Source of the DNA: Shimia sagamensis
GTDB lineage: Bacteria > Pseudomonadota > Alphaproteobacteria > Rhodobacterales > Rhodobacteraceae
Assembly: GCF_900182745.1 (NCBI RefSeq)
Contig: NZ_FXTY01000001.1
Coordinates: forward strand, 868,001 to 932,000
Direction of reading: 5' to 3'
DNA: 64,000 nucleotides
How positions within the stretch are numbered: the stretch's first letter is position 1; each line of letters starts with the position of its first letter. Position numbers and translations under genes: made by a program. Shown here piece by piece: positions 42,213-46,045 of this stretch. The notes under the pieces are model-generated. The model had not been told where the DNA came from, searched no databases, and worked only from the letters and a program-made list of their open reading frames with translations.

Positions 42213-43046
42213 TCAGGTTGCGGCGCGCAGGCCAAGGATTTCGCGCGCCTGCGCTGGCGTGGCGACGGGGCGTTCGTATTTCTCACACAGCTCTGCGGCG
42301 CGTGTGATCAAGGCCGCATTGGAGGGCGCCAATGTGTTGCGGTCCAAACGCACGTTGTCTTCCAATCCCGCCCGTGTGTGGCCGCCTGCGGCAATGGCCC
42401 ATTCGTTCACGGTGATCTGCGCCGCGCCAATGCCCGCTGCGCACCATTCGGCTTTGGGTGCGCGTTCCTGCATGATCTTCACGTAGAACTCAAACACCTC
42501 ACGGTCCACCGGCATGGCGTTTTTCACACCCATGACAAACTGCACGTAAAGCTGGCCATAAAGCGTGCCAGCCTTATGATGACGGATGGCTTGCAGGATG
42601 TGGCTCAGGTCAAAGGCTTCGATTTCCGGTGTGATTTCGTGAGCTTGCATCTCACTCGACAGCCACGAGATCAGTTCCGGTGGGTTTTCATAGACCCGCG
42701 TGGGGAAGTTGTTGGAACCCACAGAGAGCGAGGCCATATCGGGGCGCAGAGGCAACATGCCGCCGCGCGCCTGACCTGCGCCAGAGCGTCCGCCGGTGGA
42801 GAATTGGATGATCACGCCGGGGCAGTGTTTTTCCAATCCCTCTTTGAGCAAAGCAAACTTTTCCGGATCGCTGGACGGCGTTTCATCACCGTTGCGCACA
42901 TGGGCGTGGATGATTGAGGCGCCTGCCTCGACAGCGGCGTGGCTGCTTTCGATCTGTTCGCTGACCGTGGTGGGCACGGCAGGGTTGTCCGCTTTGGTGG
43001 GTACAGAACCGGTGATGGCGCAGCACAGGATGCAGGGTTTGCTCAT
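42213..43046 (-). CDS. DUF849 / beta-keto acid cleavage enzyme (BKACE)
   Basis: A 277-residue TIM-barrel metalloenzyme of the family of 3-keto-5-aminohexanoate cleavage enzyme (Kce). Start ATG at 43046 (MSKPCILCCAITGSVP) has GAGAT upstream. The zinc ligands fall in SIIHAHVRNGDETPSS; FSTGGRSGAG and GLEDNVRLDRNTLAPSN are family blocks. Known members react a beta-keto acid with acetyl-CoA to give acetoacetate and a new CoA ester. Here it sits between pcaG and pcaB in a pca operon that lacks pcaD, pcaIJ and pcaF. I infer it may act on 3-oxoadipate, giving succinyl-CoA and acetoacetate; that is not shown by the sequence. Confidence 0.88.
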   Translation of the reverse strand: MSKPCILCCAITGSVPTKADNPAVPTTVSEQIESSHAAVEAGASIIHAHVRNGDETPSSDPEKFALLKEGLEKHCPGVIIQFSTGGRSGAGQARGGMLPLRPDMASLSVGSNNFPTRVYENPPELISWLSSEMQAHEITPEIEAFDLSHILQAIRHHKAGTLYGQLYVQFVMGVKNAMPVDREVFEFYVKIMQERAPKAEWCAAGIGAAQITVNEWAIAAGGHTRAGLEDNVRLDRNTLAPSNAALITRAAELCEKYERPVATPAQAREILGLRAAT

Positions 43047-43091
43047 AGTGATCTCGTTTGATTGGCCCCGTCCAAAAGACAAGGGTGGTCG

Positions 43092-43712
43092 TCAGATGTC
43101 AAAGAAGACGGTTTCGTTGTCGCCCTGAAGCGTGATGTCAAAACGGTAGACGGGCACATCGTCGCGCATCTCGCGCTTGGCAATCAATGTGGCACGGCGA
43201 TTTTCCAATTCGATGACGTTGAGCACAGGGTCCGTGGCGTTGGCCTCCGCCTCGTCGTCAAAATAGAGACGGGTGTTAAGGCCGACGTTGATGCCCCGGG
43301 CCACAATCCAGAGCGAGATATGTGGCGCCATCAGTTGCCCGTTGCGGCCCATGGCCTGACCCGGTTTGATGGTGTCAAAGCCCCACTCGCCGGTGTCAAA
43401 GTTGGTAATCACGCGGCCCCAGCCTTTGAAGCCTTCTTCGGTCTCGCCCGCCTGTTCTGGATGCGGGTAAATCCCGTCTGCATTGGCCTGCCACGCCTCC
43501 AACATAACGTCTTTCACCGGGCTGCCGGTGCCGTCGATCACCAGACCCTCGATGCGAATGCGCTCACCTTTGGCGTTTGGCCCGGCGATGTCCCAGCCAA
43601 GTTCCCGCTCATAGATGTCAAACCCCGCCGCGCCGGGGGCAAGGCCGATGTGCACATAAGGACCAGCAGTTTGGGAGGGTGTTTCTTTGAGGTAGTCGAG
43701 TTTCTGTACCAT
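43092..43712 (-). CDS. pcaG: protocatechuate 3,4-dioxygenase, alpha subunit
   Basis: A 206-residue intradiol dioxygenase subunit. Start ATG at 43712 (MVQKLDYLKETPSQTAGPYVHIGL). It keeps the fold but not the iron-binding Tyr/His set, which lies in the beta subunit. With PcaH it opens the ring of protocatechuate to 3-carboxy-cis,cis-muconate. The pcaH stop and this ATG are separated by 1-2 bp (TGAGCATG), implying coupled translation for equal subunits. Confidence 0.95.
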   Translation of the reverse strand: MVQKLDYLKETPSQTAGPYVHIGLAPGAAGFDIYERELGWDIAGPNAKGERIRIEGLVIDGTGSPVKDVMLEAWQANADGIYPHPEQAGETEEGFKGWGRVITNFDTGEWGFDTIKPGQAMGRNGQLMAPHISLWIVARGINVGLNTRLYFDDEAEANATDPVLNVIELENRRATLIAKREMRDDVPVYRFDITLQGDNETVFFDI

Positions 43713-43714
43713 GC

Positions 43715-44443
43715 TCAATTCCCCTCCATGCGGTTTTCAAACAGGGTGGAGCGCCGACCGCGCAGTACGATGTCAAATTTGTAGGCAATGCTATCCAGCG
43801 GCACTGAAGCGTTCATGTCGAGTGCGGCAATCAGTTGTCCGCGCGCGGCCTGATCCGGGATGGTGTTCACAATCGGGCATTTTGCGATCAGCGGGTCGCC
43901 TTCAAAGTAAAGCTGTGTGATCAGGCGCTGGGCAAAAGCGGTGCCAAAGACAGACACGTGAATATGCGCCGGCCGCCAGTTGTTGACCCAGTTGCGCCAT
44001 GGATAGGCACCGGGTTTCACGGTGCGGAAATAGTAGTAGCCGTTCTCGTCCGTTATGGTGCGCCCGCAGCCGCCGAAGTTGGGGTCAATAGGGGCCAGAT
44101 AGGCGTCTTTTTTGTGGCGATAGCGGCCCCCAGCGTTGGCCTGCCAAATCTCCACCAAGGTGTTGGGCACAGGGCGGGCGTTTTCATCCAGCACGCGGCC
44201 GTGCACAATGATGCGTTCGCCAATCGCGCTTTCGCCCGGTTTGGCGTAGTTGTGGATCAGGTCGCGGTCCATCTCGGTCACGTCTCCATGACCAAAACGC
44301 GGGCCGGTGATTTCGCTGACGGTTTGCTCCAGACTGATCAGCGCGTTTTGCGGGGACCGCGCCACGGATGTTTTGTAGTCCTGCGAGGAAGCCGGCGGGT
44401 GCCACTCCCGATCACGTTGATAAAACTCGGCGGGTTTGCTCAT
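43715..44443 (-). CDS. pcaH: protocatechuate 3,4-dioxygenase, beta subunit
   Basis: A 242-residue iron-containing subunit. Visible family blocks: [27 protein letters not shown] (with an iron-site Tyr), [32 protein letters not shown] (Tyr and two His ligands of Fe3+) and [20 protein letters not shown] precedes the ATG by about 6 bp. Forms the alpha-beta dioxygenase with PcaG; downstream of pcaC in the operon. Confidence 0.96.
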
Positions 44444-44479
44444 GTTGGTGCTCCTCCCCTGCGCGCTTAGAATGCGCGA

Positions 44480-44851
44480 TCAGCCCATCTCTGCAAAGGT
44501 CTGTTTTGCCAGTTTGATGGCGTGGTTGGCTTTGGGCACACCACAGTAAATCGCGACGTGCTGAAATACTTCCATCACGTCTTCCTGGCTGGCTCCGGTG
44601 TTGGCGGTGGCGCGGATGTGCATTGGGATTTCCTCAAAGTTGCCGGTGGCCGCAAGCAAGGCAAGCGTCAGCATGGAGCGTTCCCGCAGGCTGATCGCGT
44701 CACTGGCCCAAACTGTGCCCCAAGCCCCCTCGGTGATCAGGGTTTGAAACGGTGTGTCCAGCGCGGTTTTGTTGGCCTCCGCCCGGTCGACATGTTTGTC
44801 ACCCAGCACCTTGCGGCGCACCTCCATACCGGTGGAAAATTTGTCAGACAT
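44480..44851 (-). CDS. pcaC: 4-carboxymuconolactone decarboxylase
   Basis: A 123-residue AhpD-fold enzyme that decarboxylates 4-carboxymuconolactone to 3-oxoadipate enol-lactone. Family blocks: ITEGAWGTVWASDAISLRERSMLTLALLAA and TGASQEDVMEVFQHVAIYCGVPKANHA. It is the stand-alone form, not the PcaL fusion with the lactonase PcaD, so the next enzyme must be encoded elsewhere or replaced. It lies 24 bp from pobA. Confidence 0.95.
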   Translation of the reverse strand: MSDKFSTGMEVRRKVLGDKHVDRAEANKTALDTPFQTLITEGAWGTVWASDAISLRERSMLTLALLAATGNFEEIPMHIRATANTGASQEDVMEVFQHVAIYCGVPKANHAIKLAKQTFAEMG

Positions 44852-44875
44852 GGTGTGTCTCCTTTGTCCGGCCCC

Positions 44876-46045
44876 CTAGTAGGGTAGGCCCACGTAATTT
44901 TGGGCAAACACCTTTTGAGCGGCATCGTTGCTGCGCAGGAAATCAATCTCGGCGCGCTGCATCTTCAGATCAAACGCGGATTGATCCGGGTAGCGGTGCA
45001 GCAAGTTGGTGGTGGACCAGCTGAACCGCTCGGCTTTCCAGATGCGCGCCAGCGCTCGTTCGGAATAGGCATCGAGGCCCGCGGTGTCCTTGTCCTCATA
45101 AACCTGCACCAACCCGTGGTAGAGGTAGTGGATGTCGGAGGCTGCGGTGTTGAGCCCCTTGGCCCCAGTGGGCGGCACGATGTGCGCCGCATCCCCACAA
45201 AGAAACAGCCGACCCCAACACATCGGCTCGGTCACAAAGCTGCGCAGTGGGGCGATAGACTTCTCAATCGACGGGCCCGTCACCAGCGCGTCTGCGTGGC
45301 GGCTGGGAATGCGGCGTTTGAGTTCGCTCCAGAACGCGCCGTCGCTCCAATCGTCGGGCGAGTCGCTGAGCGAGCATTGGATGTAGTATCGGCTGAGGTT
45401 GGCATTGCGCATGGAGCAGAGGGCAAAGCCGCGCTCTGACCAGCTGTAGATCAATTCGTCATGCACGGGGGGCGTTTCGGACAGCACCCCCAGCCAGCCA
45501 AAGGGGTAGACCTTTTCATATTCGCGGCGCACGGACGTGGGAATGGTCTGGCGACTGACCCCATGGAAGCCGTCACAGCCGGCAATGTAATCGCAGTCGA
45601 TCCGGTGTTCGGTGCCATCCACATGGTAGGTCACAAATGGCGCGTCTGTCTTGGCGTCGTGGATCACCACGTAGTCTACGTTGAACACCAGATTGCCGCC
45701 CTCCGCCGCGCGCGCATCATAAAGATCACGGGTCAGCTCGGTCTGACCGTACACCATGACGTCTTTGCCGGTATGGTCATGAAAGGAGATGCCAAACTCC
45801 TCCTCGCCATATGCAATCACGGTGCCGGTGTGTGTGAAGCCTTCGGCGTCCATACGCGCACCAACGCCTGCTTCGCGCATCAAATCGACAAAGCCGGTTT
45901 CCAAAATGCCCGCGCGGATGCGGCCTAGCACGTAGTCGCGCGTTTTGCGCTCCAACACGATGCTGTCGATGCCCTTGCGGTGCAGCAGTTGTGAGAGCAG
46001 GAGCCCGGACGGCCCGCCGCCAATGATGCAAACCTGAGTACGCAT
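44876..46045 (-). CDS. pobA: 4-hydroxybenzoate 3-monooxygenase
   Basis: A 389-residue flavoprotein that hydroxylates 4-hydroxybenzoate to protocatechuate with NADPH and O2. FAD motif CIIGGGPSGLLLSQLLHRKG, the aromatic-hydroxylase DG motif (CDGFHGVSRQ) and GDAAHIVPPTGAKGLN are present, plus the substrate-facing Tyr region near 200-220. AGGAGGAC precedes the ATG by 5 bp. First gene of the minus-strand pca operon, divergent from pcaQ. Confidence 0.95.
   Translation of the reverse strand: MRTQVCIIGGGPSGLLLSQLLHRKGIDSIVLERKTRDYVLGRIRAGILETGFVDLMREAGVGARMDAEGFTHTGTVIAYGEEEFGISFHDHTGKDVMVYGQTELTRDLYDARAAEGGNLVFNVDYVVIHDAKTDAPFVTYHVDGTEHRIDCDYIAGCDGFHGVSRQTIPTSVRREYEKVYPFGWLGVLSETPPVHDELIYSWSERGFALCSMRNANLSRYYIQCSLSDSPDDWSDGAFWSELKRRIPSRHADALVTGPSIEKSIAPLRSFVTEPMCWGRLFLCGDAAHIVPPTGAKGLNTAASDIHYLYHGLVQVYEDKDTAGLDAYSERALARIWKAERFSWSTTNLLHRYPDQSAFDLKMQRAEIDFLRSNDAAQKVFAQNYVGLPY

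Follow-up and report, generated by a model that had tools for sequence, protein, structure and literature searches.

The pca operon and its BKACE gene

We analysed 64,000 nucleotides of the Shimia sagamensis genome (contig NZ_FXTY01000001.1, positions 868,001 to 932,000), referred to here as the window, focusing on a protocatechuate (pca) operon that includes a gene of the BKACE (DUF849) family. Six genes lie on the minus strand in the transcription order pobA-pcaC-pcaH-pcaG-BKACE-pcaB, and pcaQ is divergent from them. Gene identities were assigned from NCBIfam profile matches judged against the cut-off of each model.

44876..46045, minus strand: pobA, 4-hydroxybenzoate 3-monooxygenase, operon gene 1 (TIGR02360, 695.5 bits, cut-off 538.7)
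44480..44851, minus strand: pcaC, 4-carboxymuconolactone decarboxylase, 123 aa, not fused to PcaD (TIGR02425, 189.4 bits, cut-off 155.7)
43715..44443, minus strand: pcaH, protocatechuate 3,4-dioxygenase beta subunit (TIGR02422, 372.1 bits, cut-off 296.4)
43092..43718, minus strand: pcaG, protocatechuate 3,4-dioxygenase alpha subunit (TIGR02423, 255.7 bits, cut-off 126.25)
42213..43046, minus strand: BKACE (DUF849), predicted 3-oxoadipate:acetyl-CoA acetyltransferase subfamily, 277 aa (PF05853, 300 bits; NF053568, 465 bits, cut-off 350)
41133..42200, minus strand: pcaB (NF004631, 439.4 bits, cut-off 371; TIGR02426, 323.3 bits, under its cut-off of 355.75)
46137..47048, plus strand: pcaQ, LysR-type regulator, divergent (TIGR02424, 412.9 bits, cut-off 303.8, scanned from 46101)

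The coordinates gave intergenic gaps of 24, 36, −4, 45, and 12 bp from pobA to pcaB. Both these and the family models bear out the tightly spaced, single-strand gene order described in a first-pass annotation of the sequence, along with its observation that PcaC is unfused; pcaB falls outside the interval given there (42213..46045). The BKACE start was taken as an ATG, the longest open reading frame (ORF) beginning at a TTG 12 codons further upstream, and pcaQ was likewise started at the ATG at 46137, although the TTG at 46101 would lengthen its ORF. As the first pass had stated, pcaD, pcaI/J, and pcaF are absent from the window, in which no match above cut-off to pcaD (TIGR02427), the PF01144 CoA-transferases, or PcaF (TIGR02430) was found. 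A loosened PcaQ operator dyad (ATAACC-N4-GGTTAA, close to palindromic and based on Sinorhizobium work) had no match on the plus strand of the window and was found upstream of the operon in none of 26 named loci.

The operon BKACE matched PF05853 over its full length (positions 1–274 of 274, cut-off 24.8) and passed the equivalog NF053568 (465.4 bits, positions 1–273 of 274), which NCBIfam already names for the reaction, 3-oxoadipate:acetyl-CoA acetyltransferase. It scored under the cut-off of the Kce equivalog NF052387 (243.2 bits vs. 382). Its best matches in the PDB were 3chv (492 bits over 275 residues), 3fa5 (436 bits), and 3no5 (407 bits), all deposits titled as uncharacterised or DUF849 proteins, and the Kce structure 2y7d matched at 179 bits. 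The first pass had suggested comparing the active site with that of Kce, for which we assumed the Zn ligands H46, H48, and E230 and the residues S82, E143, R226, and D231 (numbering of the 2y7d-match chain minus 6). The aligned residues of the operon BKACE are H47, H49, and E229, and S83, E143, R225, and D230, so that all these catalytic residues are kept. Across 118 subfamily sequences (111 distinct), each was conserved in 117 or more, and H47, H49, E229, R225, and D230 were present in all 118; the H-x-H motif and Glu are presumably the metal ligands, and the Arg and Asp presumably catalytic in BKACE. The position of Glu14, which we take to bind the substrate amine in Kce, is held by Val in 87 and Leu in 31 of the 118 sequences. 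Further conserved charges were R87, R94, and R117 (118/118) and K175 (116/118), which are missing from the three BKACE paralogs of the S. sagamensis genome, apart from one with K at 117. These charges could hold the far carboxylate of 3-oxoadipate.

Lower-pathway genes in the genome and in related bacteria

The S. sagamensis genome (4.5 Mb, 35 contigs, 100% complete) contains four BKACE genes, of which only the operon copy passes NF053568 (465 bits vs. 350), the three paralogs scoring 94–162 bits. The first-pass statement that lower-pathway genes are lacking holds for the operon and the window but not for pcaD, which is present on another contig (C9:19563-20300, 314 bits, cut-off 256). Apart from pcaD, the genome-wide search it had proposed returned a single SCOT-type pair and a PcaF-type thiolase within a phenylacetate cluster. 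The pair (C4:72683-73944) is the one PF01144 CoA-transferase of the genome, its subunits belonging to the mixed PcaI/ScoA and PcaJ/ScoB families. We separated PcaI from ScoA by a threshold of our own, 300 bits on TIGR02429, set at a score gap of 261–310 in a curated model that covers both. At 215.9 bits, the alpha subunit belongs to the lower group (163–261) and not to the PcaI group (310–366); no dedicated PcaI/PcaJ pair was found in the genome, as the sole PF01144 pair falls outside the PcaI score group. Against solved structures, this ScoA scored 300 bits with SCOT subunit A (3cdk), 274 with pig SCOT (3oxo), and 274 with 1m3e, whereas a PcaI-type protein reached 207 bits with 3cdk, a one-sided comparison in that a solved PcaI was absent from the matches in either search.

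The one PcaF-type thiolase (C8:174551-175747, TIGR02430, 688 bits, cut-off 597) adjoins paaA and has PaaC-/PaaD-type genes nearby. Several thiolase-like genes are present in the genome, including the following within the window.

12414..13604, minus strand: BktB-like beta-ketothiolase (NF006552 subfamily, 654.5 bits, cut-off 565; NF042999 BktB equivalog, 588.9 bits, under its cut-off of 725)

This gene is one of several candidates for splitting acetoacetyl-CoA, with a possible link to the operon. Near the lone pcaD lies a 254-aa PcaB-like protein (L025:6059-6823, on the genome's own contig C9), which scores 76 bits on NF004631 (cut-off 371) and matches no Pfam family; a small alpha/beta-hydrolase-like gene separates the two. 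The PcaB-like protein is perhaps a decayed or altered pca remnant.

The distribution of these genes was surveyed in 120 genomes of the window's family, one per genus and evenly drawn from a larger group. BKACE was above cut-off in 84 genera and pcaH in 75, and 69 of the 75 pcaH genera carried BKACE of the operon subfamily. A PcaI-type gene was found in 14 of the 120 genera and 12 of the 75, leaving 63 pcaH genera without one by the chosen threshold; a gene of the PcaI/ScoA family as a whole was above cut-off in 112 of the 120. In 49 of the 75 pcaH genera, BKACE and pcaH shared a strand and lay no more than 3 kb apart, which makes a chance linkage to pca unlikely, and BKACE was downstream in 49 of 50 pairs. 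PcaI-type genes occurred in 4 of the 6 pcaH genera without BKACE vs. 8 of the 69 with it (Fisher p = 0.005, ignoring kinship). Five of 13 PcaI-type loci (14 in total) adjoined a PcaF-like thiolase, and two others end near a contig end. A class survey of 153 genomes had pcaH in 26, BKACE in nine, and both in five, three of the latter belonging to the window's family and two of these being shared with the family survey. The BKACE shortcut seems common across the window's family rather than an oddity. Three further BKACE matches contain one internal TGA (G047:C11:1225028-1225849, G038:C29:108936-109754, and G025:C37:6607-7422).

Two pcaH genera without BKACE (G054 and G013; loci L139 and L140) carry two PF01144 genes and a thiolase of the PcaF type, scoring 614 and 635 bits (cut-off 597), between pcaG and pcaB, the same slot as that of BKACE in the window; these PF01144 genes matched no NCBIfam model at E <= 1e-20. 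In two genomes of the class sample (G235 and G279), a weak match to CoA-transferase (31 bits) starts directly behind the pcaG-like match. Among 60 pcaG loci, a sample biased in that most were chosen for BKACE, the next gene was BKACE in 52, pcaB in five, the transferase-thiolase set in two, and none of these in one.

BKACE of the operon subfamily (481–495 bits) also clustered with an intradiol dioxygenase of the catechol/hydroxyquinol type at four loci (L158, L039, L155, and L044), and L158 additionally carries a muconate cycloisomerase (377 bits, cut-off 335). On plasmids pSpoCB-3 and pLA6_004, BKACE accompanies genes annotated as dioxygenase and hydroxyquinol 1,2-dioxygenase, respectively. 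The protocatechuate and catechol branches meet at 3-oxoadipate; therefore, with BKACE in both, 3-oxoadipate is the beta-keto acid common to them. For BKACE copies away from pcaG, neighbouring genes were called at 54 of 57 loci (L162, L164, and L063 were dropped with BKACE uncalled) using a codon score of our own that is rough at high-GC loci, yielding 404 neighbour proteins. The largest shared neighbour cluster covered eight of the 54 loci, mostly from one group of related genomes, and the intradiol dioxygenase recurred in four. At one locus of an Aestuariivita metagenome-assembled genome (L064:7986-14953), BKACE immediately precedes a PaaJ-like thiolase, which shares 82% identity with that of the window genome, and genes that look like paa by eye.

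SCOT-type genes were found next to BKACE in several relatives. A ScoA-type gene follows BKACE in five survey genomes (G034, where it comes after pcaB, G066, G090, G103, and G115, where it is cut by the contig end) and at the named locus L059, and no PcaI-type gene was listed within 5 kb of any BKACE in the family survey. With the ScoA of the window genome, the ScoA proteins beside BKACE share 79–89% identity and PcaI-type proteins 39–46%. Three named plasmids (pP88_d, pSpoCB-3, and pLA6_004) also pair BKACE with ScoA, their ScoA proteins being 79–83% identical to that of the window genome and scoring 232–244 bits on TIGR02429, within the lower group. On pP88_d of Phaeobacter inhibens, the order is pcaC-pcaH-pcaG-BKACE-scoA-scoB-pcaD-pcaB, with genes touching or overlapping; BKACE (502 bits), PcaD (289 bits, cut-off 256), and PcaB (NF004631, 465 bits) all pass, and no thiolase annotation was present in the stretch viewed. 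Its annotation reads CoA transferase subunit A and 3-oxoacid CoA-transferase subunit B, "scoAB" being our label, while the depositors of pLA6_004 use scoAB names themselves. Eight BKACE genomes, all the cases identified, had no SCOT-type gene above cut-off, and four of these, all outside the window's family, had an acetoacetyl-CoA synthetase above cut-off, compared with one of 12 genomes with a SCOT-type gene (12 picked from many). This is no more than suggestive of acetoacetyl-CoA synthetase as a stand-in for SCOT.

Beside the operon, positions 35776-40357 (plus strand) encode a MarR-family regulator, an HlyD-type adaptor, and an AcrB-type pump by Pfam, and the same genes, judged by start sequence, adjoin pcaB at locus L046. 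Flagellar-type genes were noted by eye from ORF start sequences at approximately 27–33 kb of the window.

Proposed route and competing explanations

We consider it probable, from sequence and gene context, that BKACE cleaves 3-oxoadipate and that the unlinked SCOT-type pair and a general thiolase finish the acetoacetate. BKACE would convert 3-oxoadipate and acetyl-CoA to succinyl-CoA and acetoacetate, SCOT-type ScoAB would turn acetoacetate and succinyl-CoA into acetoacetyl-CoA and succinate, and a general thiolase would split acetoacetyl-CoA into two acetyl-CoA. The net sum would equal that of PcaIJ and PcaF in reversed order, with cleavage first and CoA transfer second. BKACE first and SCOT activation of acetoacetate second is the most economical reading of the BKACE-SCOT operons; for S. 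sagamensis, we infer the substrate, the fate of the products, and the use of the unlinked ScoAB and thiolase. The initial reaction is the one the first pass had predicted, and family models and gene context support it well, the substrate being probably right. Its further claim, that BKACE replaces the CoA-transferase and thiolase, was too strong, because acetoacetate still needs activation and splitting, and the genome keeps a SCOT-type pair and several thiolase-like genes. It needs amending to a swapped order of transferase and thiolase, with changed substrates.

Published mutants of Roseovarius nubinhibens bear on this route. Papers are cited here and below by PMC number, and what we say of them applies to the parts covered. 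The R. nubinhibens ISM locus (L051) came from a collection scan, among the best 80 of at least 591 confirmed relatives, and has the order TRAP genes, pcaQ, pobA, pcaD, pcaC, pcaH, pcaG, BKACE, its BKACE being 85% identical to that of the window (469 bits on NF053568). A distance of 159 bp separates the TRAP genes from pcaQ, equal to the spacing that a 2025 paper reports for its TRAP genes and pca cluster (PMC12442348), so L051 is very probably the same locus. The genome has a single PF01144 pair, whose subunits share 81% and 88% identity with those of the SCOT-type pair in the window genome; its alpha subunit scores 236 bits on TIGR02429 and has 40–47% identity to 13 proteins of the PcaI type. 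Since no other PF01144 pair occurs in that genome, it should be the "pcaIJ" of that paper. Growth on 4-hydroxybenzoate was lost in the CoA-transferase mutant (HW02), growth of the pcaF mutant was unchanged, and a double thiolase mutant reached a lower final density, from which the authors proposed the classical route with other thiolases standing in for pcaF (PMC12442348). The main text of the paper, as covered, contains neither "acetoacetate" nor "aminohexanoate", and the paper is absent from the open-licence papers containing DUF849 or BKACE; the BKACE next to pcaG therefore seems to have gone unweighed there. The mutants fit BKACE followed by SCOT and are also compatible with the authors' redundant-thiolase view.

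That view can be put as an alternative for S. sagamensis, in which the classical route also runs, the SCOT-type pair acting on 3-oxoadipate and PaaJ-type or other thiolases on 3-oxoadipyl-CoA, with BKACE as a side route. It is the R. nubinhibens authors' own conclusion from their transferase and pcaF mutants (PMC12442348), and it agrees with the thiolase above the PcaF cut-off in the window genome and with the eight genera that have both BKACE and PcaI. However, it seems to leave out the BKACE beside pcaG in R. nubinhibens, the ScoA of that strain is far closer to that of the window genome than to PcaI-type proteins (81% vs. 40–47% identity), and a dispensable pcaF is better explained by BKACE cleavage; we regard it as rather unlikely. 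Alternatively, BKACE alone might finish the pathway, with acetoacetate excreted or passed to polyhydroxybutyrate and no CoA-transferase or thiolase needed. BKACE near pcaH in 49 of 75 genera, set beside only 4 of 150 listed CoA-transferase matches lying within 10 kb of pcaH, would suit this, as would four genomes (G093, G094, G106, and G127) that have BKACE but no SCOT-type gene and no acetoacetyl-CoA synthetase above cut-off. Yet the pathway would give up half of its two-carbon product and acetyl-CoA would need replenishing, the PcaI/ScoA family gene is kept in 112 of 120 genera, BKACE and SCOT-type genes share operons, and loss of the CoA-transferase abolished growth of R. nubinhibens on 4-hydroxybenzoate (PMC12442348), all of which make this ending decidedly unlikely. 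That BKACE acts on another beta-keto acid derived from these substrates, or plays a detoxifying side role, is very improbable: BKACE enzymes are promiscuous (PMC4922564) and some copies lie outside aromatic clusters (e.g., L040), but 3-oxoadipate is the beta-keto acid shared by both BKACE-bearing branches, and a CoA-transferase pair with PcaF takes the same slot in L139 and L140.

Several observations weigh against the proposed BKACE-SCOT-thiolase route. ScoAB is unlinked to the operon in the window genome, the four genomes named above (G093 and G106 being fragmented) have no recognised means of activating acetoacetate among the two enzymes searched for, and eight genera carry both BKACE and a PcaI-type gene. 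In 20 of the 69 genera with both, no BKACE was placed within 3 kb of pcaH in the assemblies as they stand, and 15 genera have BKACE without pcaH above cut-off. Across the class, exclusion between BKACE and PcaI is a trend only (PcaI in 0/5 vs. 8/21 others, p = 0.28), in a count that also took scores of 298.0 and 296.9 bits, the latter (G217) being one of the eight; pooling both surveys with the two shared genomes dropped gave p = 0.0006, again ignoring kinship. At L158, L039, and L044, the dioxygenases are recognised by Pfam yet fall below the NCBIfam catechol/chlorocatechol cut-offs. At L040:8687-11011, BKACE-ScoA-ScoB lies behind a class-III aminotransferase with no aromatic gene among the queries run, and this BKACE-ScoAB pair may act on a different beta-keto acid or travel as one unit. 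Lastly, growth on protocatechuate has been published for M. extorquens PA1 given M. nodulans pcaHGBL and kce on a plasmid without pcaIJF (PMC12379598), which speaks for the route; a kce deletion is absent from the parts covered, however, and transferases and thiolases of the host itself could contribute to that growth.

On balance, we lean towards a joint reading in which most pcaH-bearing members of the family use the BKACE-SCOT-thiolase route, BKACE and SCOT are plasmid-borne in places (pP88_d, and the dioxygenase-linked pSpoCB-3 and pLA6_004), and the "PcaIJ" of R. nubinhibens is a SCOT serving acetoacetate. If true, this would explain both why pcaF is dispensable and why growth is impaired in the CoA-transferase mutant, and the thiolase "crosstalk" in R. 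nubinhibens would amount to normal thiolysis of acetoacetyl-CoA. In the published mutant, the two models predict the build-up of different metabolites. Roseobacters take part in the marine breakdown of lignin-derived aromatics, and, if this reading is right, reconstructions based on pcaI, pcaJ, and pcaF would call the pathway incomplete or mistake SCOT for PcaIJ in many of these bacteria.

Comparison with known systems

Buchan, Neidle and Moran reportedly described in 2004 a conserved ORF behind pcaG in eight Roseobacter isolates, said to be co-expressed in S. pomeroyi DSS-3 and of unknown function at that time. The DSS-3 record shows pobA-pcaC-pcaH-pcaG-BKACE, with a BKACE of 490 bits on NF053568 (SPO_RS19985), and 3chv may be the structure of this DSS-3 protein. 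BKACE is not new in kind, and the 3-oxoadipate function has already been proposed for other bacteria. M. nodulans has in its operon pcaL, presumably a fusion of C and D, whereas the window has a lone PcaC with pcaD elsewhere in the genome. In 2019, a COG3246 protein of Ralstonia eutropha H16 was suggested to cleave beta-ketoadipate, with homologs beside protocatechuate dioxygenase genes (PMC6449761). In 2022, nearly all of the Methylobacterium strains studied were reported to carry DUF849 between pcaG and pcaB, in operons with pcaI, pcaJ, and pcaF unannotated (PMC8963497), and in 2025 the gene was named kce (PMC12379598). These operons resemble that of the window in having the DUF849 gene between pcaG and pcaB and no annotated pcaI/J/F; the Methylobacterium accounts, in the parts covered, discuss no SCOT, unlike the BKACE-SCOT proposal made here. 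The group assigned to beta-ketoadipate in the 2014 BKACE screen of Bastard et al. differs between citing papers, being G4 in one (PMC8963497) and G3 in another (PMC4922564).

By model, the operon BKACE is a member of the NF053568 family, from which we found no difference. Kce shares with it the BKACE family and the catalytic residues given above, but has the presumed amine-binding Glu14 where operon-type BKACE has Val or Leu, and the operon protein stays under the NF052387 cut-off. The reading of the beta-ketoadipate pathway as BKACE followed by SCOT was not found in the open-licence literature, mostly surveyed at listing level. Novelty may lie in the scale on which this occurs in the window's family, in the BKACE-SCOT operons, in the exchange in the slot behind pcaG, and in the alternative account of the R. 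nubinhibens mutants. For deoxyribonate, a BKACE step with subsequent activation and thiolysis of acetoacetate has been published (PMC6365646), and the synthetic CORE cycle combines BKACE, a CoA-transferase, and a thiolase (PMC11961710). The CORE cycle shares its logic with our proposal, in that the acyl-CoA made by BKACE donates its CoA to acetoacetate before thiolysis; it is engineered and uses formyl-CoA, whereas the proposed route would use succinyl-CoA and, if true, would be a natural counterpart to it.

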